From positions 13,663,563 to 13,727,562 of the forward strand of contig CM060850.1 of the NCBI GenBank assembly GCA_030737835.1: 64,000 bases of DNA. The letters are read 5' to 3'. Positions 24,341-62,117 of the stretch are shown piece after piece. A model generated the notes under the pieces. That model had not been told where the DNA came from and ran no database searches. It saw nothing but the letters and a program-made list of their open reading frames with translations. Both the position numbers and the translations under genes were made by a program. How positions within the stretch are numbered: position 1 is the first letter of the stretch; every line of letters begins with the position of its first letter. Source of the stretch: Acorus gramineus. Lineage: Eukaryota > Streptophyta > Magnoliopsida > Acorales > Acoraceae.

Positions 24341-24349
24341 ACATTTGGA

Positions 24350-34499: not shown

Positions 34500-34689
34500 A
34501 CATATGTTAGATTATATGTGTTATCTTATAATGTGTGTAGTGTATTACACGTGTAATTCCTAGACATTTGTATATATAATGGAATTAAACCTTAAATAGA
34601 ATACAAGGATTCTCATTATTTTATTCTCTGTTTCTATCATGGTATCAGAGCTAGAAATTAAAAAACCCTAGTTTTTTTTCTTTTTTGGA

Positions 34690-35530: not shown

Positions 35531-35757
35531 GTCTGACCTCAGGTCAACTCCGGCCGCCCTCCGGCTCCTCCGGCAGCCCCCTGCCGCCACCGGCCGCTCG
35601 CCGCCACCTCCGGCACCTCCTTGAGACTCCGAATCACTAAATCGGTTATAACTTTCTCTCCGAAAGTCCGATTAAGGTGATCCAGGAGTCCATTTTGCTC
35701 GATTTTTGTGCTCTACGTCCTCGTCTGCTTCTGATCCTCATCCGAGTGGTTCTGCAC

Positions 35758-38700
35758 AATGTCAGAAACCAACGGCAACCCTACTCTTCCGACACCGGTG
35801 GCTTCGAAGGTATCTCGTCAGTCTACTTCGTCATTTATCTATGAGGGCATCTTGGGGGCCGCTCCTGCTACGAAAAGACAATGACCTTCTAAGCAGTGTT
35901 ATCAACCGAAAGGCCGAGGACATCATCTTCCTCCTATTGTCGCTACGACTGCTACTTCGATTGCCTCCATTCAGTCACACTCGGATATGCTTGTCCAGAT
36001 CAGTCAGCGCCTAGACCACCTGATTCTGCAGCAGTCACTTTCTGGTGCTTCTACTCCCTTTGCCTTGTCTTCTACTATGGGTACTCCTGCTTATTGGATT
36101 TTTTATTCGGGTGCCTCACATCACATGACTCCTGATAGTTCTATCCTCACTGCATGCTCACCTGCACCCTCACACCTCCCTTCGATTCATACTGCTAATG
36201 GCTCTCCTTTAGTCATCACGCAGTGTGGATCGATCACCACCACATCCCACCCTACTGGCCGCCTTTCATTACCATTTGTTTTGCATGCTCCTGAGCTTTG
36301 CATGAATCTTGTGTCTATTAGTAGATTGTGTGATTCTGGATTCACCATTACCTTTACCTCTTCTGGGTGTTCTGTGCAGGATCCACGTTCAGGGCAGAGG
36401 ATTGGTGTTGGTCGTCGGATTGGTGGACTGTATTATGTGGAGTATCTTTATCTTCCTGTACCTGATCCCTCAGTTTTCTGTGGCACTGTCACCTCTGATA
36501 CTGACTTGTGGCATAAGAGGTTAGGTCATGTTTCTGAATCTCGTCTTAAAGACCTTATTAAGTCTGGTGATTTAGGTCATGTTTCTTTCTCTCCTCTTTC
36601 TGTTTGTGAGGGCTGTAAATTAGCCAAACCTGTTGCTACTCCATTCCATTCTAGTAATCATCAGTCCTCTAGTCCATTTGAGCTTGTTCATTCTGATATC
36701 TGGGGTCCTTCTCATATCACGTCAAAGAGTGGTTTTTCGTATTATATCAGTTTTATTGATGACTATTCTCGCTTTACCTGGATTTATTTATTGCGTCATC
36801 GATCTGAGGTCCCAAAGATATATGAGGTCTTTACCACTATGATTCACACCCAGTTTCAGACTCGTATCAAAATCTTTAGGTCTGATTGTGCTCGAGAATA
36901 TATTTCTTCCACGATGCGTTCTCTTCTTCAATCTCATGGCACTCTCTTTCAGCAATCATGCCCTTATACTCATGAGCAGAATGGTGTTGCTGAAAGAAAA
37001 CATCGCCATATTCTTGAGACCGCTCGTTCCCTCTTACTTTCTTCTTCAGTCCCCAGCACATACTGGGCTGAGGCTGCTCTTCTATCTGTTCATCTTATCA
37101 ATATCACTCCCTCTTCTGTCCTCTCCGGTATGACTCCTCATGAGCGCCTTTACTCCTCCAAACCTGATTATAGCAGACTTCGCACTTTTGGATGTACTTG
37201 TTTCGTGCTTCTCCCTCCTCATCAACGCACTAAGTTGGCCGCTCGGTCAGTTAAGTGTGTATTCTTGGGGATTAGTTTCGAACACAAGGGATATCGCTGC
37301 TACGATCCTATTGGAGATCGTTTTTGGATAGCTCGTCATGTGTCATTTGTCGAAGATGTTCCCTATTTTTCTTCTACACCCACTGCCTCCTCTCCTCCGG
37401 TGCCTTCTCCTGTTCAGGTCTCCTATTGAGTCTCTACCTCTTCTCGGGCCGTCTGTTCTGCTTGAGCCCACTCCTAGTTCTGTTCTCCCTGAGTCTCATC
37501 TTGGCATTCCCACTGCTGACTCTCCTGGTTCTTCGTCTCCTCTTCACACTCCTGCAGCCAACCCCCATGGTCCTCCCTGTTCTCCTCCTATTGTGTCTCC
37601 TCTTGCTCCTTCCGCAGATGACTCCGCTGGTACTCCGTCTTCCACGGCTAACACACCTCCCTCTGATGTGGATCCTCGTCCCTTGACTCGCTACCCTCAG
37701 CGTGAAAGTCATCCCCCTGATCGTTTCAGTTTTGACTCTGGACCACTTGACCGATTCGGCTTTGCATCAGTGAGTACCTATTCTCCAGAATTCCAGGCCT
37801 ATCTCACCGCTATACATGCCCATCGTGAGCCCCGATCTTATCGAGAGGCAGTCGAGTACCCTGAGTGGCAGCAGGCCATGGCTGAGGAGTTTCAGGCATT
37901 TGAGTAGACACAGACCTGGGATGTTGTTCCCCTTCCGGATGGTGTTACCCCTATCAGCTGCAAGTGGATTTTCAAGATCAAGCATCGCCCTGATGGTTCC
38001 ATTGAACGACATAAGGCTCGTCTTGTTGCCAGAGGTTTCACTCAAGAGTATGGCATTGACTATGAGGAGACCTTTGCTCCTGTTGCTCAGATGACTACTG
38101 TTCGCACCCTTCTCGCGTTGTTACTGTTCGTCGCTGGCCTCTCTTTCAGATGGACGTGAAGAATGCTTTTCTTCATGGTGATTTATCTGAGGTTGTTTAT
38201 ATGCAACCACCTCCAGGTCTCAGCACTCCTCCTCAGCATGTTTGTCGTCTTCGGCGGGCTATATACGGACTGAAACAAGCTCCTCGTGCCTGGTTTGAGC
38301 GTTTTCGCAGTGTTATTCTGACAGCTGGTTTTGTTGAGAGCCACCAGGACCACTCTATGTTTGTGCGATCCTCATCGCAGGGGCGGGTAATCCTTCCTCT
38401 GTATGTTGACATGATTATAACTGGCGATGACTCTGCTGGTATTACTCGGGTCAAGAATCACCTCAGTCGACAGTTTCAGATGAAAGATCTTGGTACTCTT
38501 CGCTACTTCCTTGGTCTCGAGATTGCACAGAGTGATCGTGGGATTCTGCTTTCTCAACAGAAGTATACAGCTGACATTTTAGAGCGTGCTGCCCTCTCCG
38601 ATACCCGCAGTGCGGATACTCCTCTCGAGCTTAATGTGAAGCTTCGTCCTACGGATGGTGAGCTCCTCTCAGATCCTACTCGATACAGACAGATCGTGGG

Positions 38701-39346
38701 TCAGCTTGTGTATCTCTGCATCACTAGACCTGACATTGCTCATGCCGTCAGTATTGTTAGTCAGTTTGTCTCGGCTCCTCGATCAGTGCATTATGGTGCT
38801 CTTATGCGAATTCTTAGATATTTGCGTGGTACTATCACTAGATCGATCTATCTGTCATCCTCTTCGACTCTGGTTCTCAGGGCTTACACTGATGCTGATT
38901 GGGCTGGAGACCCGACCACTAGACGCTCCACCACTGGTTTCTGCATATTTCTCGAAGATTCCATCATCTCTTGGCGCAGCAAGAGAAAGGAGGTTGTTTC
39001 TCTTTCCAGCACTGAGGCTGAATATCGAGCCATGGCTATCACCACCAAGGAGATTGTTCATCTCAGACGTCTCTTGGTGGATCTAGGAGTTACTATGACT
39101 GGTCCTACTCCTCTTCACTGTGATAACCGGTCTGCTATTCAGATTGCTAGCAATCCGGTCTTTCATGAGAGGACCAAACACATTGAGATCGATTGTCACT
39201 TCGTTCGTCAGCACTTTCTTGCAGAGACATTATCGCTTCCGCATATCTCCTCTGCTGAGCAGCTTGCTGATTTCTTTACGAAGTCACATCCAATTCCTCG
39301 ATTTCAGTTTCTTCTTCGCAAACTCACTTTGTATGATCCACCGTGA
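35758..39346 (+). pseudogene. Copia A polyprotein (gag deleted, pol broken)
   Basis: ATG at about 35758 starts a gag N-terminus (MSETNGNPTLPTPVAS), then jumps to sequence beyond the zinc knuckle. Protease reads WIFYSGAS, with the catalytic Asp changed to Tyr. GAG-pre-integrase (LWHKRLGH, CEGCKLAKP) and integrase (HSDIWGP, RSDCAREY, EQNGVAERKH: D-D-E) are readable at 36500-37030. A frameshift falls near 37400, a stop at 37905-37907, and a shift near 38110. RT has [12 protein letters not shown], but its active site is YVDM instead of YVDD through loss of one codon. RNase H (YTDADWAGD, SSTEAEYRA, CDNRSAIQ) is intact to the stop at 39346. Confidence 0.9.
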
Positions 39347-39722
39347 GTTTGAGGAGGGCTGTTAGATTATATGTGTTATCTTATAATGTGTGTAGTGTAT
39401 TACACGTGTAACTCCTAGACATTTGTATATATAATGGGATTAAACCCTAAATGGAATACAAGGATTCCCATTATTTTATTCTCTGTTTCTATCAACATAA
39501 ATATAAACCAATAAATACAGATATAACTTAAATAATTATAGAAAATAAAATGACATGTACAGATATACCTCTTCCAACTATCTATCAACAACTTAGTCAT
39601 GTTCTTTCTCTTCCTTCCCCCATTCCCCTTCTCCTTCTCATTCGCCTGCTCCTTCTCCTCTCTGATCTCCTTCCCCTGCTCCTCCATCTGTCTGACCTCT
39701 TTTACCTGCTTCTTCTCCTTCT

Positions 39723-43778: not shown

Positions 43779-44391
43779 CCATTGTTTCCTTGAATCTAGA
43801 TGTAACAATTTATGGGCTGTATTGGAAAGCTAGCAGGTCTTTCTAATATTACATGAAAATTATCAGGACTCCACTGTCTTCAAGTTCAGGCCTTTGTTCC
43901 TCTATTCTAAATTAAGTCAAATATTTTATTCAAGTGCCTCTAGAAAGTAAAGCTTAATTCTTAAAGGATGTCCAATTTCCACTCTACTTTAGAATTCTTG
44001 AGGACTTCCTCTTCAATCAAACATGAATCAGTGTTAAGGAGTTTTGGGTTCTCTATAATACTCAGGTTATAGATTCTTTTAGCAAATTTGAATCTATAGC
44101 GAATTTGAAGATACATATGACCACAAAAAAAATATGACAATTTTATTTGGCACCCAGAGGTAGCAGTCACAAGATTGTAGCCTAGTAACCTCTATACCAA
44201 ACTATACATCTGGAAGGTAAATTCAATCTAATATTAAACCTTTTATGGAAACCTGACATAATACTCCTGCACAGTTATTATGTTGTTGAGTTACCTAACA
44301 ATCATGTAAGTTTTCTTAGACTGGATGAATTTTTTTTTTCTCTGTCAAATAATGCTCATCTGCACCTTTTAATGCCAACAGACAAACAGAT
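43120..44391. other. AT-rich spacer with an (AT)n microsatellite
   Basis: About 33 bp of AT repeat at 43745-43777. The stretch before it (43500-43740) has GAAAGCATAT and ATATGCTTTC words in inverted order. No gene recognised. Confidence 0.5.
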
Positions 44392-44551
44392 ATTAATGGA
44401 GCAGAGGAAATCAAGATGCAATGCATGTAATGAAACAAAAAAGAAGTCAAACAAAATAAAACAATTACTCAATTAATGGAGCAGAGGAAATCAAGATGCA
44501 ATGCATGTAATGAAACAAAAAAGAAGTGAAACAAAATAAAACAATTACTCA
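44392..44551. repeat. 80-bp tandem duplication
   Basis: Two units, 44392-44471 and 44472-44551, starting ATTAATGGAGCAGAGG or its equivalent, with only one or two differences seen, so the duplication is recent. Confidence 0.9.
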
Positions 44552-45104
44552 ATTCATTTGTTCATCACCAAAAATCCACTCATTTCTTCCTCATCTTCTG
44601 GAAGGTCAGAAACAGACAAAAAAATCCACGTCCACACAAGAATATGACAAGATCAACAATGATATTATATTATTTCAGTAACAGAAAAGTACTACTGACC
44701 TTCACCGGGTTCTGGATTTAGTGATGCACATTCAGAGAGGATGTTAAAGTGGTTGTCCACTGAAATACACAACAGTAAAAAAAAAATCATAACAGCTACT
44801 CAACTAACTCTGCTTTTATCAACATCTAGGGTCATCTATATTGATAACATGATAATTAAAAAAAATTCAACATAACGGGGGCTTCACCCATGTGTCTTTA
44901 TAAAACAAACAAGCAGGAAACGATGAAAAGCGTTACTTTTATAATTTCATTCCCTTATGTTAGAAACAGAGAATAAAAAAATAGAATCCCTATATTCCAC
45001 TTAGGGGTTAGTCCCTTTATATATACAAAGATCTAGGAGTTACACGTGTAATACACTACACACATTATAAGATAACACATATAATCTAACAGCCCTCCTC
45101 AAAC

Positions 45105-48100
45105 TCACGGTGGATCATACAAAGTGAGTTTGCGAAGAAGAAACTGAAATCGAGGAACTGGATGTGACTTCGTAAAGAAATCAGCAAGCTGCTCAGCAGA
45201 GGAGATATGCGGAAGCGATAATGTCTCTGCAAGAAAGTGCTGACGAACGAAGTGACAATCGATCTCAATGTGTTTGGTCCTCTCATGAAAGACCGGATTG
45301 CTAGCAATCTGAATAGCAGACCGGTTATCACAGTGAAGAGGAGTAGGACCAGTCATAGTAACTCCTAGATCCACCAAGAGACGTCTGAGATGAACAATCT
45401 CCTTGGTGGTGATAGCCATGGCTCGATATTCAGCCTCAGTGCTGGAAAGAGAAACAACCTCCTGTTTCTTGCTGCGCCAAGAGATGATAGAATCTCCGAG
45501 AAATATGCAGAAACCAGTGGTGGAGCGTCTAGTCGTCGGGTCTCCAGCCCAATCAGCATCAGTGTAAGCCCTGAGAACCAGAGTCGAAGAGGATGACAGA
45601 TAGATCGATCTAGTGATAGTACCACGCAAATATCTAAGAATTCGCATAAGAGCACCATAATGCACTGATCGAGGAGCCGAGACAAACTGACTAACAATAC
45701 TGACGGCATGAGCAATGTCAGGTCTAGTGATGCAGAGATACACAAGCTGACCCACGATCTGTCTGTATCGAGTGGGATCTGAGAGGAGCTCACCATCCGT
45801 AGGACGAAGCTTCACATTAAGCTCAAGAGGAGTATCCGCACTGCGGGTATCGGAGAGGGCAGCACGCTCTAAAATGTCAGCTGTATACTTCTGTTGAGAA
45901 AGCAGAATCCCACGATCACTCTGTGCAATTTCGAGACCAAGGAAGTAGCGAAGAGTACCAAGATCTTTCATCTGAAACTGTCGACTGAGGTGATTCTTGA
46001 CCCGAGTAATACCAGCGGAGTCATCGCCAGTTATAATCATGTCGTCAACATACAGAAGAAGGATTACCCGCCCCTGCGATGAGGATCGCACAAACATAGA
46101 GTGGTCCTGGTGGCTCTCAACAAAACCAGCTGTCAGAATAACACTGCGAAAACGCTCAAACCAGGCACGAGGAGCTTGTTTCAGTCCGTATATAGCCCGC
46201 CGAAGACAAACATGCTGAGGAGGAGTGCTGAGACCTGGAGGTGGTTGCATATAAACAACCTCAGATAAATCACCATGAAGAAAAGCATTCTTCACGTCCA
46301 TCTGAAAGAGAGACCAGCGACGAACAGCAGCAACGGCGAGAAGGGTGCGAACAGTAGTCATCTGAGCAACAGGAGCAAAGGTCTCCTCATAGTCAATGCC
46401 ATACTCCTGAGTGAAACCTCTAGCAACAAGACGAGCCTTAGGCGTTCAATGGAACCATCAGGGCGATGCTTGATCTTGAAAATCCACTTGCAGCTGATAG
46501 GGGTAACACCATCCGGAAGGGGAACAACATCCCAGGTCTGTGTCTGCTCAAACGCCTCAAACTCCTCAGCCATGGCCTGCTGCCACTCAGGGTACTCGAC
46601 TGCCTCGTGATAAGATCGGGGCTCACGGTGGACATGTATAGCTGTGAGATAGGCCTGAAATTGTGGAGAGTAGGTACTGACAGATGCAAAACCAAACTGG
46701 TCTGGTGGCCCCGAGTCGTAACTGAAGCGGGAAGGAGGGTGACGCGCACGGTGAGGATAACGAGGCAAAAGATGAGGATCCACGGCAGGAGGAGGCGCGT
46801 CAGGCGTGGGAGTCGGAGGACCAGTGGAAGTATCTTCAGTAGGGACAATAGGTGACACACTGGGAGGAGAGGGTGGGTTATCTGCAGGATTGTCAGGTTG
46901 AGACGCAGGGGTAGGAACAGACTCTAGTGCAACAGGTAGGCCAGGAAAAGGAAGAGACGTAATAGGAGAGACCTGAATAGGAGGAGAGGACGGAGTGGGT
47001 GAAGAAGAAAAATAGGGAACATCCTCGACAAAGGACACATGACGAGCGATCCAAAATCGATCTCCAACAGGATCATAGCAGCGATAACCCTTGTGTTCGA
47101 AGCTAATCCCCAAGAATACACACTTTACTGACCGAGCGGCCAACTTGGTGCGTTGATGAGGAGGGAGAAGCACAAAACACGTACATCCAAATGTGCGAAG
47201 TCTGCTATAATCAGGGTGAGAAGAATAAAGACGCTCATGAGGAGTCATACCGGAGAGGACAGAGGAGGGGGTGATATTGATAAGATGGACACAGAGAAGA
47301 GCAGCTTCAGCCCAGAACATACTGGGGACTGAAGAGGAAAGTAAGAGAGCACGAGTCGTCTCAAGAATATGACGATGTTTACGTTCAGCAACCCCATTTT
47401 GCTCATGAGTGTAGGGGCATGATTGCTGAAAAAGGGTGCCATGAGAATGAAGAAGAGAACGCATCGTAGAAGAGATGTATTCTCGAGCACAATCAGACCT
47501 AAAAGTTTTGATACGAGCTTGAAATTGGGTATAAATCATATTGGTAAAAATCTCATAAATTTTGGGAACCTCAGAACGTTGACGCAATAAATAAATCCAA
47601 GTAAAACGAGAGTAATCATCAATAAAACTAATATAATAAGAAAAACCACTCTTTGAGGTTACATGAGATGGGCCCCAAATGTCAGAATGAACAAGCTCAA
47701 ATGGACTAGAGGACTGATTATTACTAGGACTAAAAGGAGTAGCCACAGGTTTGGCTAATTTACAGCCCTCGCAAACAGAAAGTGGAGAAAAAGAAATACG
47801 ACCTAAGACACCAGATTGAAATAGTTCTTTGAGACGAGACTCAGACACATGACCTAACCTTCGATGCCACAAATCGACATCAGAAGTGACGCTACCACAG
47901 AAGACAGATGGATCAGGAACGGGAAGACGAAGATACTCCACGTAATAAAGTCCGCCAATCCTACGTCCAACGCCAATCCTCTGCCCTGATCGTGGATCCT
48001 GCACAAGACAACCAGAGGTGGTAAAGGTAACAGTGAGACCAGAATCACACAATCGGCTAATAGATATAAGATTCATGCAAAGGTCAGGGGCATGTAAAAC

Positions 48101-48793
48101 AAATGGTAATGAAATGCGTCCTGTAGGGTCAGAGGTGGTAGTGATCGATCCACACTGCGTGATGACTAAAGGGGAGCCATCTGCAGTATGAATCGTGGGC
48201 AGGTGTGAAGGTGCCGGTGAGCATGCAGTGAGGACAGAACTGTCCGGTGTCATGTGATGTGAAGCACCTGAATCAAAAATCCAATGAACAGGAGTACCCA
48301 AAGTAGTAGAGAAAGCAGAGGGAGTAGAAGAACCAGGAGGAGGTTGCTGTATGATCAGTTGATCGAGGCTCTCTCGGATACGCCCAAGCTGATCTGTGTA
48401 TGAAGACGGAGCGTCAGTGGCAACAGCAACAGAAGTATAGGGAGCAGTGGGGCGACGCTGTCCTCTTCCTTTTGGTGCAAAGCGCTTTTCAGGATGAAGC
48501 TTCCAACAGTCGGCGACCGGATGTCCAGTCCTCTTGCAGTGAGTACACAATGTATTCTTTCGAGAGGAGCCGGTGAGTGTCGTAGGAGGAGTAGCTGCCA
48601 AGACACCCTCATAAGTGGAAGATGGAGTGGACTGGCGCAATGCAATGGTGCGAAGACGAGTCTCCTCAGCAACAACCTCAGTGACGGCGACGGCGACGGC
48701 AGCGGCAGGGGCGGCGACGGCGACGGCGACGGTGATGGCAAGGGCACGACGGCGACGGCAAGGGCACGACGGCGACGGCGACGGCAAGGGCAC
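45105..48793 (-). pseudogene. Copia B polyprotein (gag mostly missing, one frameshift)
   Basis: Frame 48793-46358 starts in the repeat leader, then CTHCKRTGHPVADCWKLHP (CCHC zinc knuckle). Protease WIFDSGASHHM has the catalytic Asp. Integrase has HSDIWGP, RSDCAREY and EQNGVAERKH. A one-base loss near 46440 breaks the frame inside SIER; the correct frame continues as 46361-45105. RT has [12 protein letters not shown] and YVDDMIITGDD, and RNase H has TDADWAGD, STEAEYRA and DNRSAIQ. All pol active sites are intact, unlike A. The RNA-binding gag body before the knuckle is absent, so the element depends on others for a capsid. Confidence 0.9.
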
Positions 48794-48870
48794 GATGGCG
48801 ACGGCGACGGCGACGGCAAGGGCACGACGGCGACGGCGACGGCAAGGGCACGACGGCGACGGTGAAGGAT
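48660..48870. repeat. GC-rich repeat leader of copia B
   Basis: Tandem GTGCCCTTGCCGTCGCCGTC units of about 18-30 bp (read on the minus strand) directly downstream of the primer site. The same CCGTCGCCGTCG core as in copia A, but A has about 700 bp more. Confidence 0.85.
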
Positions 48871-49989
48871 TCCAAAAAAAAAAAAAAACTAGGGTTTTTT
48901 AATTTCTGGCTCTGATACCATGTTAGAAACAGAGAATAAAATAATGGAATCCCTATATTCCACTTAGGGGTTAGTCCCTTTATATATACAAAGATCTAGG
49001 AGTTACACGTGTAATACACTACACACATTATAAGATAACACATATAATCTAACACCTTCAATTGCATCTACATGTATGTGAAAGTGTTACATGTTCTAGT
49101 GGTTTTTATACACACAAAGAGTAGAAACTAAACTGTTTTTCTCTTTATGAAAGATCAAATTATATAAGAGTCATTGTTAAAAGAAAGCCTTGAAAGCAAG
49201 CATTTGGTAGATGAAATAAGACAATAGCATAAATGTCACCTGTTTTTATCCACTTCTGTCAAGTTCTGCATGTTATCCCTAATTCCCTTCACACACAACA
49301 TACAAAAAGAGTTTCTGAAAAAAAATTATTTTTGTCTAACGCAGCAAAAGAACGATAGAAGATCTGATCTATGTCAAGGTCTTAGACAATCTCTCTCAAA
49401 GAGAAGGAAAATTAAAATAACCCAATATTATTAATAGATAAAAGTTGAATATGTTATTAGACTACAAGTCTTTATTATATAGACTCAATAAGGACCAATG
49501 AGAAACCTCATTAAACCTAATTACAAATTTACTAAAAGTAGAAAATATTAAATAAATATAATAGCTATTTATTCTAAGATCCCACAAATCAATCAGAATC
49601 AATGACAATAATTTTGATATTTGTGAAAAGAAAAATAATCATGCAAATTATTGCCATAAATGACAAATTTGCTTATTTAATGGTTTTAATGATAAAATCT
49701 AGCAAAATTAAATATCTCCACAAAATAATTCAGCATATCAAATTTTGTGGGATTCTGAGATAATCTCAATTATTCTTGTCACCTGTTATTTTCATAGTTT
49801 TCTTCCTGGATCTCTTTTGATGGTCTGATCGCTCCAATAACATATCGATCGTCCGTTCTACATCAGTCTCCTCCACTTGAGAAGAACTCGACCTCGAGTT
49901 CAAATGAAAAGAATTCGATAGATTAGGAGGTTGATATTTGATGTAGTCTGTCACCTTGGATGTAGGACTGGTTAGCAAAGATTTGCCCT

Positions 49990-50350
49990 CAGCCTTCAGA
50001 GCTTTGGAGATTGGCTGTTGTTCCAAGGGGAATATTGCGATCTTGTGTGTTGTCACGGCCTCGACAGGTGATGTCAACGTCGTATTGCCAGGGTCTGCCC
50101 AACAATACATGGCTAGCATCCATGTCCACCACGTTGCAAAACACTTCATCTCTATAGTATTTACCGATAGAGATAGGTACCCTACAAACTTTTGTCACCT
50201 TCGCGGATGGGCCTTTCTTGATCCAACCTATAGAGTAAGGCGCGTGATGCATCTCCCTTGGTAGCTTTAAGTGGTCCACCAAATTTTTTTGAAACAAAGT
50301 TTTTGAAGCTCCCACTATCCACAATTAAATCGCAGACTTTCTTGTTGATC
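49990..50350 (-). pseudogene. Ty3 retropepsin remnant of element E
   Basis: Reads [18 protein letters not shown] with the catalytic DSG, then shifts frame to [43 protein letters not shown] and HVLLGRPWQYDVD. Frames break near 50285. Downstream to 49770 only a charged linker remains (KALKAEGKSLL), with no reverse transcriptase. Confidence 0.75.
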
Positions 50351-50379
50351 ATGCAACGGGATCGGAAGATACTGTGGCG

Positions 50380-51597
50380 CTAACTGGAGAACTCGTCCTT
50401 TGGCGAGTACAACACTCGATGTACGAGGAGGTTGACTCGCTCCTCTTCTTCTTCTGCGAACTCGGCGCCATGATATAGATCATCATCGTCAGTTGTGTCG
50501 TGCCCCACGACACCGTTATCATCCTCCTCCACGAGGTTCATCGACCTTCGATTAGGACATTCGTTGGAGCGATGTCCCAGCTTTCTGCATTGAAAACAGG
50601 TGTTGGGTGTTGGTCTCGCATACGGATTTTGAGTCCTTGAGGCGTTATGGTTCGTTGGGGCTATTGTTGAATTGGTTCCTCCTTGTTCACCGTTTACGCC
50701 CAGTGCCCCTTTGAATTGGTAGGGAAGACTTGGAGATGCAACATCCTTCCCCTTATGAGGAAAAGATGCATCTGAGGTACTCCTACGGAAGATTGAGGAA
50801 CTTCCCGCTCGTTGATCCATTAATTCTGCCTTTAATGCCATGTTGTGGGCCTCGTCTACGCTCCACACCACCTGTAGACCAATATGATCTTGAATAGATG
50901 GCCTCAACCCGTTAAGGTATCGGACAACCCATTGTGATTCAATCTCCTCAATATTATTTCGATCGGAAAGTATAAAAAATTCAGCAGTGTAATCAGAAAC
51001 GGATTGATTACCTTGATGGCAGTTTTGGTATAGTTGGAACAGGTACTGCTCGTAGTCCGGTGGAAGGAATCGACCCATGAGGAGTTGCTTCATCCTCCTC
51101 CATGTACGAATAGGAGTCTTTCCTTGGCGTTGTTTGGTCCTTTGAAGGTTGTCCCACCAAACAGCGGTGCCATTCTTCAAACGGAAAGCCACCAACTTTA
51201 CCATCCTCTCCTCAGAGACCTCCATCATCTCGAAGAAGCGCTCGATCTCAGAGATCTAGTCGAGAAAATCCTCGGTGTGCAAATTACCATTGAAGAAGGA
51301 GATATCCACCTTCAATCGATAATCACTACTCTCTTGTTGCCGCCGCTTTGGCTGATAGTCGTTTATTCCATTAACTTCGTCACCCGAATCATCCTCGTTG
51401 TCAGGTTGAAAGCGAAGAGGTTGTCGGACAACGTTGTGGACAATAGGTTGGCTTTGGGCGAATCCCTCGGCTCGCACCCTGTCCCTTCCAGGTCGTCTGA
51501 TGTCGGTGTGAAGATTTACACTAACCAAAATCTCACGAATCTCTTGCAGTTGTCGTTGAACGTCAAGAAAATTGTTGTTGATGTTGTTGTTGTCCAT
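50380..51597 (-). pseudogene. Ty3 gag of element E (one in-frame stop)
   Basis: The likely start is MDNNNINNNFLDV at 51597. The capsid-like part reads VWWDNLQRTKQRQGKTPIRTW and LFQLYQNCHQGNQSVSDYTAEF. The CCHC knuckle is CFQCRKLGHRSNEC. An acidic linker follows to the stop at 50380. A single TAG at 51256-51258 replaces the codon after FLD (in relatives often Trp) and is in frame with both sides. Without it gag would be about 405 residues. Gag packages the RNA into particles. Confidence 0.85.
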
Positions 51598-52237
51598 CTT
51601 GCAATTTTTGACACAGCTCCTGCACCCTATGATCACCGTCAATAGGGCGGTTGTTCTCGACGTCGTCATGTGCCATTGAGCCAAGTGAATCCTCGCTCTA
51701 ATACCACCTAACGCAGCAGAAGAACGATAGAAGATCTTATCTATGTCAAGATCTTAGACAATCTCTCTCAAAGAGAAGGAAAATTAAAATAACCCAATAT
51801 TATTGATAGATAAAAGTTGAATCTGCCATTAGACTACAAGTCTTTATTATATAGACTCAATAAGGACCAATGAGAAACCTCATTAAACATAATTACAAAC
51901 TTACTAAAAGTAGAAAATATTAAATAAATATAATAGCTATTTATTCTAAGATCCCACAAATCAATCAGAATCAATGATAATAATTCTGATATTTGTGGAA
52001 AGAAAAATAATCATGCAAATTATTGCCATGAATGACAAATTTGCTTATTTAATGGCTTTAATGATAAAATCTAGCAAAATTAAATATCTCCACAAAATAA
52101 TTCAGCATATCAAATTTTGTGGGATTTTGAGATGATCTCAATTATTTTTGTCACCTACTATTCTCACAGTTTTCTTCCTGGATCTCTTTTGATGGTCTGA
52201 TCACTCCAATAACATATCGATCGTCCGTTCTACATCA

Positions 52238-52683
52238 TTGTCTTTTTGAAAAATCATAACAAATCCATTCAACTACATAATCTATTCAGTCTTCTTCATC
52301 TGTAACATCTATAACATTTTCATGATTTGAGATGACACAAAGACAAGAATGCAAACTCAACTTCACGTAAATTCTAATGATAGGTAGACTAAATTAATAA
52401 GCATGAACCTTTCCAAATTCCAATAAGATGATTTGTAGTATTTGTACAAGGCAAAGTGTATACATGCAGTGTGACCTTCAATATGTTCTTGGTACAACAA
52501 CATCACACCCCCCCCCCACAAGTAATATTCATCAGGGACACTGTTCATAATAAACAACCCTCCGGCCCCTGTTCGGACCTGTTCGGAGAACCTCCTTGCT
52601 CGGGAACCTCCCTTCCCGACCTCCTCCTGCAAGCAAGCGTAAGGGGGGACCCCTTTTTTTATGGGTAATTAAAATATTGTATT
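52238..52683. other. Spacer between elements E and D
   Basis: Contains the TTGTC and GTATT duplications at its ends and a run of nine C near 52508. No gene recognised. Confidence 0.45.
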
Positions 52684-52849
52684 TGTTAAATGTATATATA
52701 TGTTAGGGTTAAGGGTAGATTAGTCTTTTCTTTGTTTTCCTTTTTGTACTATAAATATTAGATACAAACCCTAATAAGATTCTTAATTCATTCTTTTCAT
52801 ATTTTAACATGGTATCAGAGCTTCAATCCAATTTTTTTCTTTGATTTTC

Positions 52850-53400
52850 TGTTGGCGTTACTCTCCGTCCGTCGCTCCGCTGTCTGTCGCCCTGTTCATG
52901 TCACCCGGCGTAGATTCGCCGCCCCCGCGCCACTCCGCCGCTGCCCCACGCAAATCTGTCGCATCTGTGCCGCTGTGCCGCCGTTGCCGCTCCGCCGTCG
53001 TGCCGCCGCTCCGCTGCTGCCCCACGCAGATCTGTCGCATCTGCACCGCTGTGCCGCCGTCACGCCGTTGCTGCTCCGCCGTCGTGTCGCTGCTGCGCCG
53101 CCCTCCCACGCCGCCTTGCGCAGCCCCACCGCTGTCCTCGCGCAGATCTGCCACTGCTGCGCCGCCCTTCCACGCCGCCTCGCGTAGCCCCGCCGCTGTC
53201 CTCGAGCAGCCCCGTCGCACCTGTGCCGCTGCTGCGCCGCCCAGCCGCACCGCCTCGCGCTGCTCTGCCACCCTACCGCGCCGTCCAACGCCACCCTGCC
53301 CTGCCTACGCCCCGTCTGGGCCGTGCCCGCGCCCCGTCCATGCCCTGCCCGCGCCTGCCTGTGCGAAGTCTCCGTGTTGCGTGATCAGCACAGACCCGCG
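52850..53400. repeat. GC-rich repeat leader of copia D
   Basis: Blocks of CCGCTGTGCCGCCG with CCCCACGCA(A/G)ATCTGTCGC recurring about 70 bp apart (52951, 53021), then CGCCGCCT-GCGCAGCCCC-CCGCTGTCCTCG twice (53112, 53170). Open frames on both strands are compositional. It occupies the same place as the leaders of A and B, although the family is different. Confidence 0.75.
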
Positions 53401-53793
53401 CTGATCAGCCTGGATTTCCAGGAATCCTTTCCCATATTCTATCACGGACAGCATCCCGAATCTTCACACACACTTGACCCTACCCGACTGTCACCATAAA
53501 ACCTAAGCAAGCTAAGGGGAAGGGCACTGACTTACGAACAAGGCAACCTGAGGTAGGCAACCGGAGGTGACCGCAGGGAGGGAGACAAAGTTCACTACTT
53601 ATGTGGTTTTTTATAGCTACCTCAGTTTCTTCTCTTTTATCTGGTGGGAAGTCGGTGGTAAAATGGGTTGTTATTAACACAAGTAGTTTTCAAACGAAAG
53701 GTTACCCGTATTTTTGACTCCCGTTGGTCGAAAAAGCATCGCCTACCTTCTTTGTTGAGAGCATTTTGATTAATCCCCCGATTGCAATTACCA
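53401..53793. other. Unassigned part of copia D
   Basis: Mixed composition, no reading frame recognised. Its right end holds TTTTGATTAATCCCCCGATT (from about 53766), which recurs inverted at the far end of the inverted pol piece. Confidence 0.4.
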
Positions 53794-55377
53794 TGTTAGA
53801 ATATGAGAAGAATGAAGATGAGAAATCAGGAATAGAAAAGTCCAAAAATGTGACTTCCTCAATCGTCGATGGGGGAAGAGGAACAGGAGGCGAGCGAAGA
53901 GCGTAGTATGGATGATTATCAAAGAATGTGACATGACAAGATGTCCGAAGACGACGAGAAACAGGATCATAGCATCGATATCCTTTGATTTCATTACTGT
54001 ACCCAAGAAAGACACACATAGTGGAACAAGGAGACAACTTGGTACGCTCAATAGGAGGAAGTAGGACAAAACACGTGCATCCAAAAACACGAAGACGAGA
54101 ATAATCAGGAGGACTATGATAGACGAATGAGTGCAATTGATGAGATACACACTTGTAAGAACAGCCTTACCCCAAAACTGAACAGGAACAGGAGCAGAGA
54201 GGAGAAAGTACCGGGTCGTTTCGAGGATATGACGGTGTTTGCGCTCAGCAATCCCGTCCTGCTGATGAGCATAAGGAGTGGAAAGCTGTGGTAGAGTGTC
54301 TTGGGAGGATAAAAAATCACGAAAAGCACGAGAATAATATTCTCCTCCACAATCAGAGTGAAACACCTTGATACGTTTGGAAAACTGAGTTTCAACCATT
54401 GTAGCAAAAAATTTATAGATGGGTAACAACTCTGAACGACTATGCATCAAATATATCCAGGTAAAGCGAGAAAAGTCATCAATAAAAATAAAATAATAAC
54501 GGTTACCCCCTTTAGAAGGAACAGGGAAGGGACCCCGAACATCAGAGTGAACTAGATCAAAAGGAGAAGCAAAAATGTGATTACTAGTAGGAAATGGAAG
54601 AGCCAAGTGTTTTGCCAACTTGCAACCCACACATGGTTGAAGCTCAGTTTTTGAAAATGAACCTAAAATACTGGTACTTATTAGATAACGAAGTCTTGGA
54701 GGAGAGAGATGGCCAAGACGGCGGTGCCATACATCAGAGGAGGAAGGAGAAGAAGAAATCAAGCGAGCAAAAGCTGCAGAAGATGAAGGAATATGAAGAT
54801 GATCCATGTAGTAGAGCCCACCGCGTCTAGAGCCTGTCTCAATCTGCTTCCCCGTACAATGATCCTGTACAGAACAAGTAGAAGAATCAAAAGTAATGAG
54901 ACAATCATGATCCGTAATTTTACCAACAGAAAGCAAATTTAGTGATAGACCAGGAACATGAAAAACATCAGGAAGTTGAAATCGATGAGAAGGATCAGCA
55001 AGAGAACCAGAACTCGACACAGACAGAGGAGTCCCATCTGTCGTACGAATAACAGGAGTGGGAAACACGCGAGTAGGACGACTAATAAGGGATGCATGAG
55101 AAGTCATATGATGGGAAGCCCCATAGTCAAGAATCCATGAGGAAGTAAGGTTACCTGTCACCGTAGTAGAAGCAGAAAAGGGAGCAGATGAATCACTACC
55201 AGTCACTAAGTGAAACATATCTTGGAGCTGCTGTTGTTGAAGATGGAGCTGCGCAAGACTCTCAGTGATCTGAGAGGAAGAATATGCCGACGGATCAGTA
55301 GAAAAATCAGATGCAACAACAGCTGCAGGTCGAGGCTGAGAACGACGTGGAGGAACTGTAATCGAGGGATTAATCAA
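53794..55377 (-). pseudogene. Inverted copia pol 5' half inside element D
   Basis: The minus strand encodes 529 codons: linker (TVPPRRSQPRPAAVV), protease WILDYGASHHM (DSG changed to DYG), LWHRRLGHLSPP-type pre-integrase, CVGCKLAKH, and integrase HSDVRGP, HSDCGGEY and AERKHRH. A shift occurs near 54115 and the second frame continues through FGCTCFVLLPP to DFSIPDFSS. It then abuts a 25-bp LTR end (53794-53818). It parallels forward pol 57190-58745, at roughly nine of ten residues by eye. It lacks everything after integrase. Confidence 0.9.
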
Positions 55378-55381
55378 AAAG

Positions 55382-57009
55382 TGGTATCAGAGCTACGGCT
55401 ACACTCCATGGAGACGGAAGGAGAACAAGGAAACCAAAACCTCGTCACTCTCGAGCGGTTTCAAGCATTGGAGGCTGCCGTTCAACGGATGACGAAGGTG
55501 ATGGAGCATGCGACGGTTCGTCAAGATCAAGAGCGTCCAGTGGTCGATGAAACCGTTTCATGGAGGACTCAAAATCCTTGAGTCCCTCGATATGACGAGG
55601 ATGACTTCTCCGAAGAGCAACTCAATGAGTTTCTCGATTCCAAACATGCGTGTGGTGGTTATCAACGACCGCAAGCTGAGGATCGTACCCGCGACTTCTA
55701 GGCGAAGGTCGATTTGCTCGAATTCAAAGGCCAACTTCACATCGAGGATTTTCTCGATTGGCTTGCGGCAGTCGAATGCTTCTTTGACTATAGGGAGGTG
55801 CCTGACGCAAAGAAAACGAAGCTTGTAGAAATCACGTTTAAAGGCGGGGCATCAGCGTGGTGGGGACAACTTCAATTGTCTTGCACCAAGATGGGGAAGC
55901 GTCCAATTCAGACATGGTACCGTATGAAGCAGCTTCTTCGTTAACGATTTCTCCCTGTCGACTATGATCAAATTTTGTTCCAACAATACCAAAATTGCCA
56001 CCAACGCAATAGGGCTGTGAGGGACTATACAGAAGAGTTCCATCGATTGTCGTCTCACAACGACATCGTGGAAACAGAAGCGCAACGGGTGGCTCGTTAC
56101 ATCGGTGGGTTAAAGCCAATGATCTATGATTTGGTGTCTTTGCACCTTATTTGGACGTTATCAAATGCGGTGAAGATGGCAGAGCGCGCGGAAATTCTTC
56201 ATAGTCGTTCAACTACAAGAAGGTATGGCCAAGATATTGTCAAAAATTTTCAAATCTCGGCGGCATCGTCCGACAACAAGACTACTCTGATTCCGAGTAT
56301 TGAAACAAACCAGCCAACCCAGGCGTTCTTGGAACAAGGAAAAGGACATGGTGGGAAAGTTACATTGTCAACCACACACGGCTCATACAATGAATCAAAG
56401 GGATCCATATGAGTCCCAATTTGAGTGGAGGATTGTTTGTTTTCGTTGTGGAGAACAAGGGCATTGATCCAACCAATGTCCTCCTAGAGATCGTCGTACC
56501 GTGAATCTAGTACTAAGCAAAGATGTCGAAGAAGAGGATGCCAACTACCACGAGTATGCTGGTGACGATGAAGAAGATGGAGATCTAAAGGAAGAGGTTC
56601 CAGCTATATGTCCTCGAGGAGAATCTCTTATGGTTCAGCGGTTGATATGCATACCCAAGGTAAATGAATCCTCTCAATGCAATACTAGAAACATTGCTAT
56701 TGTTCCTATGAAGGATGAGAAATCTCCCAAAGCTTTAAAAGTGGAGAGACACTCTTCTCTTTCATTTAAGGATTTTGTGAAAGAATCCATGGATGAAGAA
56801 CAACATGAGAAATCCAATGCAAAGTTTAGAGCAACGAAAATTGACAAGCAACACTTTGAAACATTCAAAAAGGAGGATAAAGCAATGGCTACGAACTTGA
56901 GGACAAGTTCTCTACAGGTGAAGGGGACTGGTGTAGGACGATTTGACAAGAAAATCAACCATTATTGGGGAAGGAAAGTTAAAAAAAAAGAAACAATTAA
57001 TGTGACATA
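55382..57009 (+). pseudogene. Ty3 gag segment inserted in copia D
   Basis: Begins with TGGTATCAGAGC (55383) and METEGEQGNQNLVTLERFQ. The capsid part reads GQLHIEDFLDWLAAVECFF, GASAWWGQLQLSCTKMGKRP and QQYQNCHQRNRAVRDYTEEF. A broken knuckle follows (CFRCGEQGH, then stop, then NQCPP). An acidic linker and KSPKALKVERHSSL echo the end of element E. Three or more stops and shifts. No Ty3 LTR is attached on either side. It clearly belongs to the same broad Ty3 group as E. Confidence 0.85.
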
Positions 57010-57049
57010 AAAAAGGAAACAATTAATGCTCATAATCATGGAGAAATCA

Positions 57050-60000
57050 ATGTAAATTTGATTATCCTAATTATGTATCTCGCACTTCAGCTCCTAGAGC
57101 ACTTCCTCTAGCATCTCGTCCACTAGATCCTGCAGTATCACATGCACCAGCGCCTTGGGCGCAAGCACCTTGGGCACCATCGACAGTTCCTCCACGTCGT
57201 TCTCAGCCTCGACTTGCAGCTGCTGTTGCATCTGATTTTCCTACTAATCCACCGGCATATTCTTCCTCTCAGATCACTGAGAATCTTACGCAGCTCCATC
57301 TTCAACAACAGCAGCTTCAAGATATGCTTCGCTCAGTGACTGGTAGTGATTCATCTACTCCCTTTTCTGCTTCTACTGCGGCGATAAGTAACCTTACTTC
57401 CTCGTGGATTCTTGACTCTAGGGCTTCCCATCATATGACTTCTCAGGCATCCCTTATTAGTCGTCCTACTCGCCTGTTTCCCACTCCTATTATTCGTACG
57501 ACAGATGGGACTCCTCTGTCTGTGTCGAGTTCTGGTTCTCTTGCTGATCCTTCTCATCGATTTCAACTTCCTGATATTTTTCATGTTCCTGGTCTATCAC
57601 TAAATTTGCTTTCTGTTGGTAAAATTGCAGATCATGATTGTTTCATTACTTTTGATTCTTCTACTTATTCTGTACAAGATCGTTGTACGGGGAAGCAGAT
57701 TGGGACAGGCTCTAGACGCGGTGGGCTCTACTACATGGATCATCTTCATATTCCTTCGTCTTCTGCAGCTTCTGCTCGCTTGATTTCTTCTTCTCCTTCC
57801 TCCTTTGATGTATGGCACCGCCGTCTTGGCCATCTCTCTCCTCCAAGACTTTGTTATCTAATAAGTACCGGTGTTTTAGGTTCCTTTTCAAAAACTGAGC
57901 TTCAACCATGTGTGGGCTGCAAGTTGACAAAACACTTGGCTCTTCCATTTCCTACTAGTAAACACATTTCTGCTTCTCCTTTTGATCTAGTTCACTCTGA
58001 TGTTCGGGGTCCCTCCCCTATTCCTTCTAAAGGGGGTAACCGTTATTATGTTATTTTTATTGATGATTTTTCTCGCTTTACCTGGATATATTTGATGCAT
58101 AGTCGTTCTGAGTTGTTACCCATCTATAAATCTTTTGCTACAATGGTTGAAACTCAGTTTTCCAAACGCTCTGATTGTGGGGGAGAATATTGTTCTCGTG
58201 CTTTTCGTGATTTTTTATCCTCCCAAGGCACTCTACCACAGCTTTTCACTCCTTATGCTCATCAGCAGAACGGGGTTGCTGAGCGTAAACACCATCATAT
58301 CCTCAAAACGACCCGGTCCTTACTCCTCTCTGCTTCTGTTCCTGTTCAGTTTTGGGGTGAGGCTGTTCTTACAAGTGTGTATCTCATCAATCGCACTCCT
58401 TCATCTATCACTGCTGGCATCTCCCCCTTTCAGCGTCTTTATCATAGTCCTCCTGATTATTCTCGTCTTCGTGTTTTTGGATGCACGTGTTTTGTCTACT
58501 TCCTCCTCTTGAGCGTACTAAGTTGTCTCATTGTTCCACTATGTGTTTTTCTTGGGTACAGTAATGAGATCAAAGGATATCGATGCTATGATCCTGTTGC
58601 TCGTCGTCTTACATCTTGTCATGTCACATTCTTTGAGAATCATCCATACTACGCTCTTCGCTCGCCTCCTGTTCCTCTTCCCCCATCCACGGTTGAGGAA
58701 GTCACATTTTTGGACTTTTCTATTCCTGATTTCTCATCTTCATCTTCTGCTCCTCAGTCATCTATTCCGTCTGTACCTGACCACTCTTCATTGTCAGTCC
58801 CATCTTCACCCTTGTCGTCTTCGTCAACCTCTTTTCCGGATGATTCATGTGGGACGGTCCTGTCTACTCCTACACCTATTCCTGATGCTGCTTCGCCAGA
58901 AGACGATTCTGCTTCCGCACCAGTTGCTCCTCGTCGCAATCCACCTCGCGCTCGTCGACCTCCTCAACGACTAGCTTGGTTGCCTCTGATTCTTTTTCTC
59001 CTAGTTTGTTTTCTTTCAGCTGTTTCCACTCATTGGGAGCCCCAATCATATCGTGAGGCTGTCGGCATTCCAGAATGGGAAGGTGCTATGGCAGAGGAGC
59101 TTAGTGCATTACAACGCACTCATACGTGGAAAATTGTACCACTTCCTCCAGGGAAGACTCCTATCAGCTGTAAGTGGGTTTATAAAATCAAGACCAACTC
59201 TGATGGTTCGATTGAGTGTCACAAGGCCGGGTTGGTTGCCCGTGGTTTCACTCAGCAGCATGGTATTGATTATGATGAGACATTTGCTCCTGTAGCAAAG
59301 ATGACAACTATTCGTACTTTGATTTCTGTTGCTTCTGTTCGTCAATGGCCCATTTATCAGCTTGATGTCAAGAACGCTTTTCTTCATGGTGATTTATCAG
59401 AGGAGGTTTATATGACTCCTCCTCCAGGTCTTCCTCACTCATCTGGTCATGTATGCCATCTTCACCGCGCTCTCTATGGTCTCAAGCAGGCTCCTCGTGC
59501 TTAGTTCACTCGATTCACTAATGCTATCTGCGCTGCTGCGTTTGTTCCGAGTTCCTCTGATCCAGCTTTATTTGTTCACACCTCTGGTCCTCATCGTACT
59601 ATCCTGCTACTTTATGTTGATGACATGATCATCACCGGCGATGATTCGTCTCTATACATCGGTCAAGCAACATCTTCAGCGTCAATTTGAGATGAAAGAT
59701 CTTGGCAAACTTTGCTATTTTCTAGGCTTGGAAGTTGCTTCTGCTCCCCGTGGTTATCTTCTCTCCCAACGCAAGTATACTGCTGACTTGATCGACCGTG
59801 CCTGTCTGACTGATGATCGCATTTCTCCCACTCCTATTGAGCTTCATGCTAAGCTCCGGCCTGACGATGGAGAACCACTTTTGATGTTATAGACAGCTTG
59901 TTGGAAGCCTCGTCTATCTCACTGTCACTCGTCCTAACATTGCCTATGCTGTGCATATTGTCAGTCAGTTTGTTGCTGCCCCTTGTACTCTTCATTATGC

Positions 60001-60550
60001 AGCAGTTCTTCGGATTATAAGCTATCTACGTAGCACTATATCTCGTTCTCTGCTGTTACCGTCTTCTTCTACTCTTGAACTTCGCGCTTATACTGATGCT
60101 GATTGGGCAGGAGATGTCACAGATCGAAAATCCACAACTGGTATATGTGTCTTTCTTGGGGACTCTCTTATATCTTGGAAGGCCAAGAAACAAGACATTG
60201 TTTCTCGTTCGAGTGCTGAGAACGAATATCGTGCTATGGCATCTGCTACTGCTGAGGTTGTTTGGCTTCGGCGCCTCCTCTCTGACATGGACGTTATTCT
60301 ATCTGCGTCTACTCCTCTATATTGTGACAACAAGAGCGCCATTCAGATTGCCAGCAATCCAATTTTTCATGAACGTACGAAGCACATCGAGATCGATTGT
60401 CACTTCGTCCGTCATCATTTTATTGCGGGCACTATATCACTCCCATATATTTCCTCTTCTCTTCAGTTATCAGACTTTTTCACAAAGTCCCATACATTTC
60501 AGTGGCATGATTTTTTGTTGAGCAAACTCTCGGTGTATGATCCACCATGA
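57050..60550 (+). pseudogene. Forward copia D pol (several breaks)
   Basis: Frame 57324-59504 (open upstream to about 57050): protease WILDSRASHHM (DSG changed to DSR), pre-integrase VWHRRLGHL, CVGCKLTKH, and integrase HSDVRGP. Five residues are missing just before SDCGGEY, then QQNGVAERKH. RT starts KWVYKIKTNSDGS and has [16 protein letters not shown] at 59503-59505 replaces the Trp usual after APRA. YVDDMIITGDD follows near 59610, with a shift near 59650. RNase H (TDADWAGD, AENEYRAM, CDNKSAIQ) runs to the stop at 60550. AENEY replaces the usual TEAEY motif. Confidence 0.9.
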
Positions 60551-60689
60551 GTTTGAGGGGAGGTGTTAAATGTATATATATGTTAGGGTTAAGGGTAGAT
60601 TAGTCTTTTCCTTGTTTCCCTTTTTGTACTATAAATATTGGATACAAACCCTAATAAGATTCTTGATTCATTTTTTCCATATTCTAACA

Positions 60690-60884
60690 GTATTGCTATG
60701 GAATTGTGGATTTGTACAAATACACAACCTTTACAAGAGAACAAAATGGGAACCGCCTTTGTGTCTTTTATATTATTTTGTAATAATGTGGGATGGTTAG
60801 TCAATTCTGGGTCCAAGGAGAGTTAGGATGGGCGTGGGATATCAACCTACGGAGGGGTCTCAGAGGTGAGGAAATCGAGCAATA
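60690..60884. other. Spacer right of copia D
   Basis: Starts with the GTATT duplication. No gene recognised. Confidence 0.4.
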
Positions 60885-61085
60885 CTTGCATCTATTACGA
60901 CTCATGCGTGGTTTCAACAGCTAGCGGATAGGGAATCTTGGGTGGTTCGGCCAATTGAGGGTTACTCGGTTAGGTAGGGTCATGCGTGGTTGGTGTGGTC
61001 TCAGACAGTTGCTTCGTCCATTGCAGCCTACTCATGGACTTTTTGGAGAGCCAAAATTCCCCTCAAAGTCTAAGTGTTTCATGTG
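60885..61085 (+). mobile_element. LINE relic (zf-RVT region)
   Basis: One frame reads LADRESWVVRPIEGYSVR, stop, GHAWLVWSQTVASSIAAYSW, then TFWRAKIPLKV, stop, VFH. This resembles the cysteine-poor end of plant L1 reverse transcriptase (W-x-x-KIPLKVKVF). Short and degenerate; no ends found. Confidence 0.4.
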
Positions 61086-61375
61086 ATTGTTGAGTCATGA
61101 ACGACTGGTCCCCCCTGCTCCGAAGGGTTATCGAGCAAGTTGCGGAAACGTTCGTTCTCGCACCGCATTTCGTCCATGGCACGACGAAGTTCCTCCACCT
61201 TGGCATGGCACTGTGCTGTCTAAAGCTCGACCGCGTCGATGCGGTTTTGCGCGTCGACAGCATCAAGCTGCTGATTTGCCCCCGAAACGCTCCCTGGATC
61301 ATATGAGGTATTCCGTTGTGCAAATCGGGTCACAAGCGGCAGAAGGGTCAGAAGATTTTTCTTGGGAGGCATGAT
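61076..61375 (-). pseudogene. Ty3 gag N-terminus (element F)
   Basis: The minus strand starts MPPKKNLLTLLPLVTRFAQ at about 61371. A coiled-coil-like part follows: QQLDAVDAQNRIDAVEL, stop, TAQCHAKVEELRRAMDEMR and ENERFRNLLDN. It ends abruptly where the LINE relic begins. A Ty3 gag start is the best reading. One in-frame stop. Confidence 0.55.
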
Positions 61376-61562
61376 CACGAATCGGGGTTTGTGTTCAACG
61401 CGCGTCCCCTATTTGGCAGGCCAAGCTGGAGGGGCAGAAAATAACGATCCGGGTTTGGGTTGATAGGATCCGTTCGCTCTACTTCTCCCGATGGCTTCTG
61501 CTTCGTCGTCGGCAATCTTCCTCTTCGAACGTCATCAGAAACAGGGTTGGAGGTGACCTGCA

Positions 61563-62117
61563 AAAGACCCTCCAACGCTCAAGTCAACACAATGCACAAT
61601 TTAGGATTATGACAAAAAAGAATTTTCACCATACGAGAACCGGTTACCTATTTATAGTATTTATGATGTCCTAGAATCCTCCGTGGATCTCTCTCCTATC
61701 GGATGTATGGGATGGGATCCCAAATTTTAGGGAATTAGTTATGTTATTTGAGGGATTTGCATAATCTTCTGTTATTATCCCTTAATAAATACACATAATT
61801 TGTTGGAATCCTGTAAATCAATTGGTGATTCCCCCAAATCCATGATATATTGTTGTGATCTTAGAGAATCAGTTAAATGGCAACTCTAGATTTAATATAT
61901 CTATTGGGGATTTAGAGAATCAGCAGTTGATGATCCTGAATTCAAAAATTAAATTATGAAAATACTGATTTGAATTGATGCTCGGTCGTTGGATATGGAG
62001 GGTCTGATAGGTCAGATCACGTATGGTGGGCTATCCGGGTTGTGGACCCTCGCTAACCGGGTCATGAGTAATCGGTATATAGAGCATAATATGTGAGTCT
62101 GATTTCTAGCCCCTACA
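61563..62117 (-). mobile_element. Probable Ty3 LTR and leader of element F
   Basis: In the sense direction it starts TGTAGGGGCTAGAAATCAG at 62117 and ends near 61563 with TGACTTGAGCGTTGGAGGGTC, a phrase common at the 3' end of plant Ty3 LTRs. Gag follows after a 190-bp leader. No second LTR or target duplication is in the window, so F is a 5'-end fragment. Confidence 0.5.

Follow-up and report, generated by a model that had tools for sequence, protein, structure and literature searches.

A copia retrotransposon of Acorus gramineus, lying within a 64,000-nt stretch of assembly GCA_030737835.1 (contig CM060850.1, here C4:13663563-13727562; hereafter the window), has lost its gag gene and carries in its place a patchwork of at least five pieces, among them a Ty3 gag segment and a long piece of copia pol in inverted orientation. 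The whole is bounded by a single pair of 126-bp long terminal repeats (LTRs), which are 94.4% identical and differ at 7 of 126 sites, all by transitions, and by the target-site duplication GTATT on either side, bearing out what a first-pass annotation of this DNA had reported of matched LTRs and a perfect duplication. Two of the internal joints fall at boundaries between a primer-binding site (PBS) and an LTR. The element is best read as an old single copia insertion whose middle is a patchwork where gag should be, and for its origin we favour, at roughly even chances, aberrant reverse transcription with several template switches followed by a single integration.

The lost gene is evident from two other copies of the same copia family, L044 and L045, which match the leader of the window element up to 53463 and then its pol part from 57071 (the match to L045 ends at 59195 within the stretch compared). 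The block 53464-57070 stands in place of about 1.16 kb of L044 and L045, and that stretch holds gag in L044, an element of about 5.4 kb with two LTRs 96% alike and a Retrotran_gag_2 domain. The family is large, with 740 first-look candidates in the assembly (398.6 Mb in 137 contigs), and includes nearly identical copies such as L044 and L045. The first-pass annotation mentioned neither the loss of gag nor the additional patches (53464-53805 and 55361-55378). Its three principal parts, an inverted pol at 53794-55365, a Ty3 gag at 55382-57009 and a forward pol at 57050-60550, are all present, but their limits have moved: the inverted segment to 53806-55360, the Ty3 homology to 55379-57080, including about 150 bp of 3' LTR and blurred at its 3' end by microhomology, and the resumed copia homology to 57071-60553. 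Pfam identifies Pol_BBD, gag_pre-integrs and rve in the inverted open reading frame (ORF), the same three plus SH3_retrovirus and RVT_2 in the forward one, and Retrotrans_gag at 55975-56412 in the middle piece. No Pfam family was found at E 0.01 in 59951-60550, 56501-57010 or 55508-55828, and no Rfam family at its gathering threshold across 52600-60800. With copia gag absent and the pol frame broken, the element does not have the gag and single open pol frame of an autonomous Copia element.

A second copy of the chimera

The same order of pieces recurs on the opposite strand about 140 kb away, at C4 ~13.859-13.868 Mb, where 9030 columns collinear with window 52933-61876, 1.2 kb of right flank included, are 94.1% identical. 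This second chimera lies inside an inverted segmental duplication, in which C4 ~13.859-13.891 Mb corresponds, at 94-97% identity, to window 52933-61876 and, in pieces, to 21882-44386; both chimeras therefore descend from one insertion. The duplicate does not contain window 44386-52933, so its 5' LTR is gone. A diverged copy with the same order also makes misassembly, which the first-pass annotation had named as its possible undoing, unlikely: that an assembly error joined unrelated pieces in this repeat-rich region is scarcely credible given agreement of that length in a long duplication so far off.

Searches with the joints found nothing further. The joint between inverted arm and Ty3 segment (J2, 55250-55480) was spanned by 2 of 40 scored matches from 209 candidates, with 37 covering the copia side only and one the Ty3 side only; the J1 side (53420-53900) was likewise spanned by 2 of 40 scored from 172 candidates, with 37 covering the arm end only and one the C52 piece. 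In both cases the spanning matches are the window and its segmental duplicate. The third joint (J3, 56950-57330) was spanned by 1 of 40 scored matches from 265 candidates, the window itself, the other 39 covering the copia side only; this search and two other family searches missed the known duplicate, and such searches can miss copies. A transposing chimeric family was accordingly considered and set aside, the joints being spanned nowhere besides window and duplicate among the scored matches. The further three-part copies that the first-pass annotation proposed looking for thus reduce to one segmental duplicate, with no sign of a spreading element, and the chimera appears to be a one-off, multiplied later by duplication of a chromosome region.

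Joints, arms and the Ty3 donor family

Read on the minus strand, the inverted arm passes from the protease part (PR, a presumed assignment) through integrase (IN) and, by way of a short stretch common to both, into the terminal 23 nt of a copia LTR plus 1-5 nt of PBS. This U5 patch (53789-53816) resembles the end of the window 5' LTR at 22 of 24 positions, a match equalled by 0 of 2000 shuffles, and overlaps both neighbouring patches by microhomology. It joins IN at the short shared stretch and stops 1-5 nt from the copia LTR/PBS boundary, sharing GGTA at its PBS end with a 92-bp patch that matches contig C52, while the Ty3 piece starts within about 3 nt of its own LTR/PBS boundary (55379-55382). 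Such boundaries are where the cDNA strands of LTR elements start and stop. Bases shared at the joints, identified by eye, are GGTA (U5/C52 patch), TTCAT/CTTCT (IN/U5), TACAG, AA(A)AG and TTATG.

Material of the C52 type occurs twice. Positions 55363-55379, the filler and a neighbouring base, are 17 bp identical to the C52 locus and inverted relative to 53764-53789; the two patches score 21 as an inverted pair, the best of 2000 shuffles reaching 17. The 26-bp inverted repeat that results (53764-53789/55354-55379) was considered as a pair of LTR or transposon ends and rejected, since the LTRs of Ty3 have other ends and a single C52 locus is matched by both copies; it is taken as putative patch material. 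Checked as a possible gene exon, the C52 locus has open frames without clear exon borders. For 53464-53700 a search for the source returned four matches only, namely the window, its duplicate, a weak match on C32 (77% over about 98 bp) and 30 bp of the C52 patch.

The inverted arm (53806-55359) and the forward arm (57183-58748) align at 91.9% identity over 1588 columns and are separated by a spacer of 1823 nt, in keeping with the arms of about 1.5 kb and spacer of about 1.85 kb first proposed and with the alignment suggested as a check on them. Their pairing includes 28 perfect runs of at least 21 bp, totalling 1016 bp with a longest of 86, and a computed duplex energy of -2760.5 kcal/mol. RNA read through the element could fold into a hairpin, as the first-pass annotation had supposed of an LTR-driven transcript.

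The further supposition that the element carries a copy of its own pol fared less well. By Kimura two-parameter distance (K2P), the two arms lie 0.0532 apart in the window element and 0.0567 apart in its duplicate. The inverted arm is nearer to L044 (0.0435) and L045 (0.0441) than to the forward arm beside it, in part owing to changes peculiar to the latter. The forward arm stands 0.0255 from L044, and L044 stands 0.0013 from L045; between window and duplicate, forward arms differ by 0.0339 and inverted arms by 0.0461. Across a stretch of 196 bp, a copy on C52 lies closer to the inverted arm (8 differences versus 15). Exact 24-mer matches to L044 number 528 of 1531 for the inverted arm and 844 of 1543 for the forward arm. 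The own forward arm was not among the 40 scored matches of the inverted arm, a weak absence because the duplicate's inverted arm was missing likewise.

Individual sites point in more than one direction. Polarised by L044 and L045, 26 arm differences predate the duplication, 13 changed in each arm, although 4 of the 13 inverted-arm changes fall in the last six columns, where the alignment enters the joint, and may not be real substitutions. Eight sites favour other groupings (five of pattern 0101, three of pattern 0110), so that some conversion or repeated change is likely. At nine sites all four arms, of window and duplicate, agree against L044 and L045, which makes these sites candidates for private changes held in common; related elements A and B cover two of the nine, and there the arms hold the derived base, which speaks for a possible shared ancestry of the arms. 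Four of the nine sit in one 196-bp stretch, where every arm variant is present in one or more of three other copies too; those four are therefore family variation. Copying back of the element's own pol is thus unsupported, though not disproved, the inverted arm being no nearer to the forward arm than to two other copies, and its template need not have been this element.

The Ty3 segment comes from a family with two LTRs and gag but no pol, represented by full copies (L011-L013) in which paired repeats of 506-526 bp flank an interior of about 1.55 kb; the gag domain is identified by Pfam in L013 only, which has one ORF of at least 100 aa. The LTR/PBS junctions read LTR-AG-PBS in L013 and LTR-AA-PBS in L011. 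The window piece is without a 5' LTR and ends about 150 bp inside its own 3' LTR. The family search listed 42 matches and scored the best 40 of 142 candidates, and flanks of 1.5-2 kb a side were read for 26 of 40 other Ty3 matches. None of the 26 has a copia arm in its flanks. Four have an inverted 3' LTR: L034 (C2), L035 (C1), L036 (C54) and L038 (C8). In these copies both outer ends are U3 ends, and perfect 5-bp target duplications (AGAAC, GAGCC, GATAG) are present; in L035 and L036 the first bases of the inverted LTR are ones that lie immediately beyond the LTR/PBS boundary. Some pairs on different contigs have common flanks, on both sides for L024/L025 (C1, C3) and L034/L038 (the latter at 99.75-100%) and on one for L027/L028 (C7, C9), such that the 26 loci represent about 23 insertions, three with an inverted 3' LTR. 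The pairs may be other segmental duplications, or repeats around insertions. Three such insertions imply that this Ty3 family is prone to inverted products.

Table 1. Features of the chimeric element (window positions)
Feature	Position	Strand	Basis
Target-site duplication GTATT, left	52679-52683	.	Sequence of flank
Copia 5' LTR, 126 bp; missing in duplicate copy	52684-52809	+	LTR pair comparison
Copia PBS TGGTATCAGAGC, presumably of initiator Met tRNA type	52810-52821	+	Sequence
Copia leader, GC-rich; part 53004-53463 common to L044 and L045	52822-53463	+	
237 bp, origin not found; single weak match on C32	53464-53700	.	
92-bp patch, 97% identical to single place C52:3763860-3763951	53701-53792	-	
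Inverted copia LTR end: 23 nt U5 + 1-5 nt PBS	53789-53816	-	
Inverted copia pol segment (arm): Pol_BBD, gag_pre-integrs, rve	53806-55360	-	Alignment and Pfam
18-nt filler	55361-55378	+	Partial identity to C52 locus
Ty3 (TR-GAG type) segment: PBS at 55382, gag, ~150 bp of 3' LTR from ~56929	55379-57075	+	
Copia resuming just after gag: IN and reverse transcriptase (RT) by Pfam, PR and RNase H parts presumed; frame broken	57071-60553	+	Family alignment, Pfam
Forward arm	57183-58748	+	Alignment with inverted arm
Polypurine tract, G-rich, assigned by eye	60554-60563	+	Sequence
Copia 3' LTR, 126 bp	60564-60689	+	LTR pair comparison
Target-site duplication GTATT, right; present in duplicate copy too	60690-60694	.	

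The window holds other repeats as well. Two related copia elements in opposite orientation, at 34505-39494 and 44957-49054, are 88.8% identical over 3.5 kb, have 135-bp LTRs and resemble the RT part of the chimera at about 68% identity. A 530-bp direct repeat (49336-49865/51708-52237; 95.8% identical, starts 2.4 kb apart) has ends unlike the ordinary TG..CA ends of LTRs, and short inverted and direct repeats, about 70-94% alike, are crowded within 1 kb at 24349-25208.

Competing accounts of the origin

An origin by aberrant reverse transcription would begin with mixed templates in one particle, in which a copia minus strand had just begun at its tRNA and copied 23 nt of U5. Through microhomology, that strand would then have switched to a copia RNA within its integrase part and continued as far as the protease part, and a Ty3 minus strand ending at its own PBS would have used the copia strand as template by way of a short patch, creating the inverted arm. 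Further jumps may have picked up the fragment also present on C52 before a return to copia, and the product would have been integrated once, decayed, and later been carried into the inverted segmental duplication. Matched LTRs, a target duplication, joints at PBS/LTR boundaries and the inverted products of the Ty3 donor family are all consistent with this course, as is a divergence between the arms (K2P 0.053) that resembles that of the LTR pair (0.0589), the latter figure based on no more than 126 sites. LTR-retrotransposon insertions produced by template switching, with target duplications and outer LTRs that match, have already been described (Sabot and Schulman 2007, PMC1950507).

Several considerations weigh against reverse transcription. 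At least five switches within a single cDNA are many, and the inverted orientation requires a switch onto minus-strand DNA, which is rarer than switching from RNA to RNA. No transposed chimera was found among the scored joint matches, and the data do not show that the whole was ever RNA or cDNA. The 92-bp patch, which matches a single C52 place without clean exon borders, fits the repair of a break equally well.

Such repair is the chief alternative, and a distinctly possible one if short of probable: a double-strand break in the gag of an ordinary copia copy, with about 1.16 kb lost, would have been filled in place with sequence from family copies, Ty3 cDNA and other loci, joined by microhomology. 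A deletion coupled to an insertion of many patches with short microhomologies speaks for this account. So do the two patches that resemble one C52 locus but face opposite ways, the greater closeness of the inverted arm to two other family copies than to the forward arm beside it, and a chimera confined, among scored matches, to window and duplicate. For filler, however, 1.55 and 1.7 kb would be long patches, and two joints at PBS/LTR landmarks weigh against repair, as does a Ty3 family that yields inverted products within insertions bearing target duplications. Stepwise nesting, in which a Ty3 element and a separate copia inserted into a copia copy and were trimmed afterwards, is improbable: nested elements are frequent in plant genomes (PMC1950507), but the element shows neither a target duplication nor an outer LTR that would mark a nested Ty3 or copia, and the Ty3 5' LTR is absent right at the PBS boundary.

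Known systems and silencing potential

Like the complexes of PMC1950507, the element is one insertion with a target duplication, matched outer LTRs and more than one template. Those complexes consist of two related elements that share an internal LTR, whereas the window element combines Copia, Ty3 and other DNA with a long inverted piece and contains no complete internal LTR, nor one common to two cores: its internal LTR remnants are about 150 bp from Ty3 and the 23 nt of copia U5. With a target duplication around the whole and outer LTRs at 94.4% whose divergence is like that of the arms (126 sites only), it is filed as a variant of template-switched insertions, with two superfamilies and an inverted piece, and with repair in place as the rival. 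No description of such an element was found in a literature search by title or abstract of open papers.

The two contributing families also have counterparts. We liken the Ty3 donor to TR-GAG (terminal repeat, gag only) elements, on the strength of two LTRs of about 520 bp that enclose some 1.55 kb with gag only; the window piece differs in having neither a 5' LTR nor the greater part of a 3' LTR, and some relatives have an inverted 3' LTR. The copia family we take to be of the short-LTR Ale/Retrofit type, given 126-bp LTRs, a Met-tRNA type PBS and Retrotran_gag_2 in L044, although in the window element gag is replaced and pol broken.

Whatever its origin, the element might act as does Mu killer of maize, the analogue named in the first-pass annotation, which is described as a perfect 2.4 kb hairpin giving 26-nt siRNAs and for which silencing by an inverted transposon duplication is known (PMC2563033). 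In both, part of a transposon is duplicated and inverted, and a hairpin RNA is possible; Mu killer is a DNA-transposon derivative with genetic proof, whereas in the window element the arms differ by about 8% once indels are included. A long hairpin RNA would give rise to small RNAs silencing the copia family, and Ty3 if derived from the loop. Long complementary arms, a 1.8-kb loop and the 24-mers of the inverted arm found exactly in L044 are compatible with such a role. The arms are no longer perfect, however: they have accumulated about 5% substitutions as well as indels, and their perfectly paired runs of 21 bp or more are the 28 noted above. A copia family of this size, with copies as close as L044 and L045, does not look long shut down. 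Active silencing is possible but improbable. A more sweeping proposal, that a mixed Copia/Ty3 particle made the self-complementary element in one go, that its hairpin RNA silences or silenced both superfamilies, and that the Ty3 gag-only family is a recurrent maker of inverted products, would be a long shot as a whole.

Copia and Ty3 are two superfamilies whose replication is generally assigned to separate particles. Should reverse transcription be the true origin, this one insertion records a series of strand jumps between a Copia and a Ty3 element, and an inverted retrotransposon can arise naturally in a single step. The inverted-LTR relatives make a tendency to inverted products testable in a defined family and, if the hairpin is transcribed, the element would be a retrotransposon counterpart of Mu killer.

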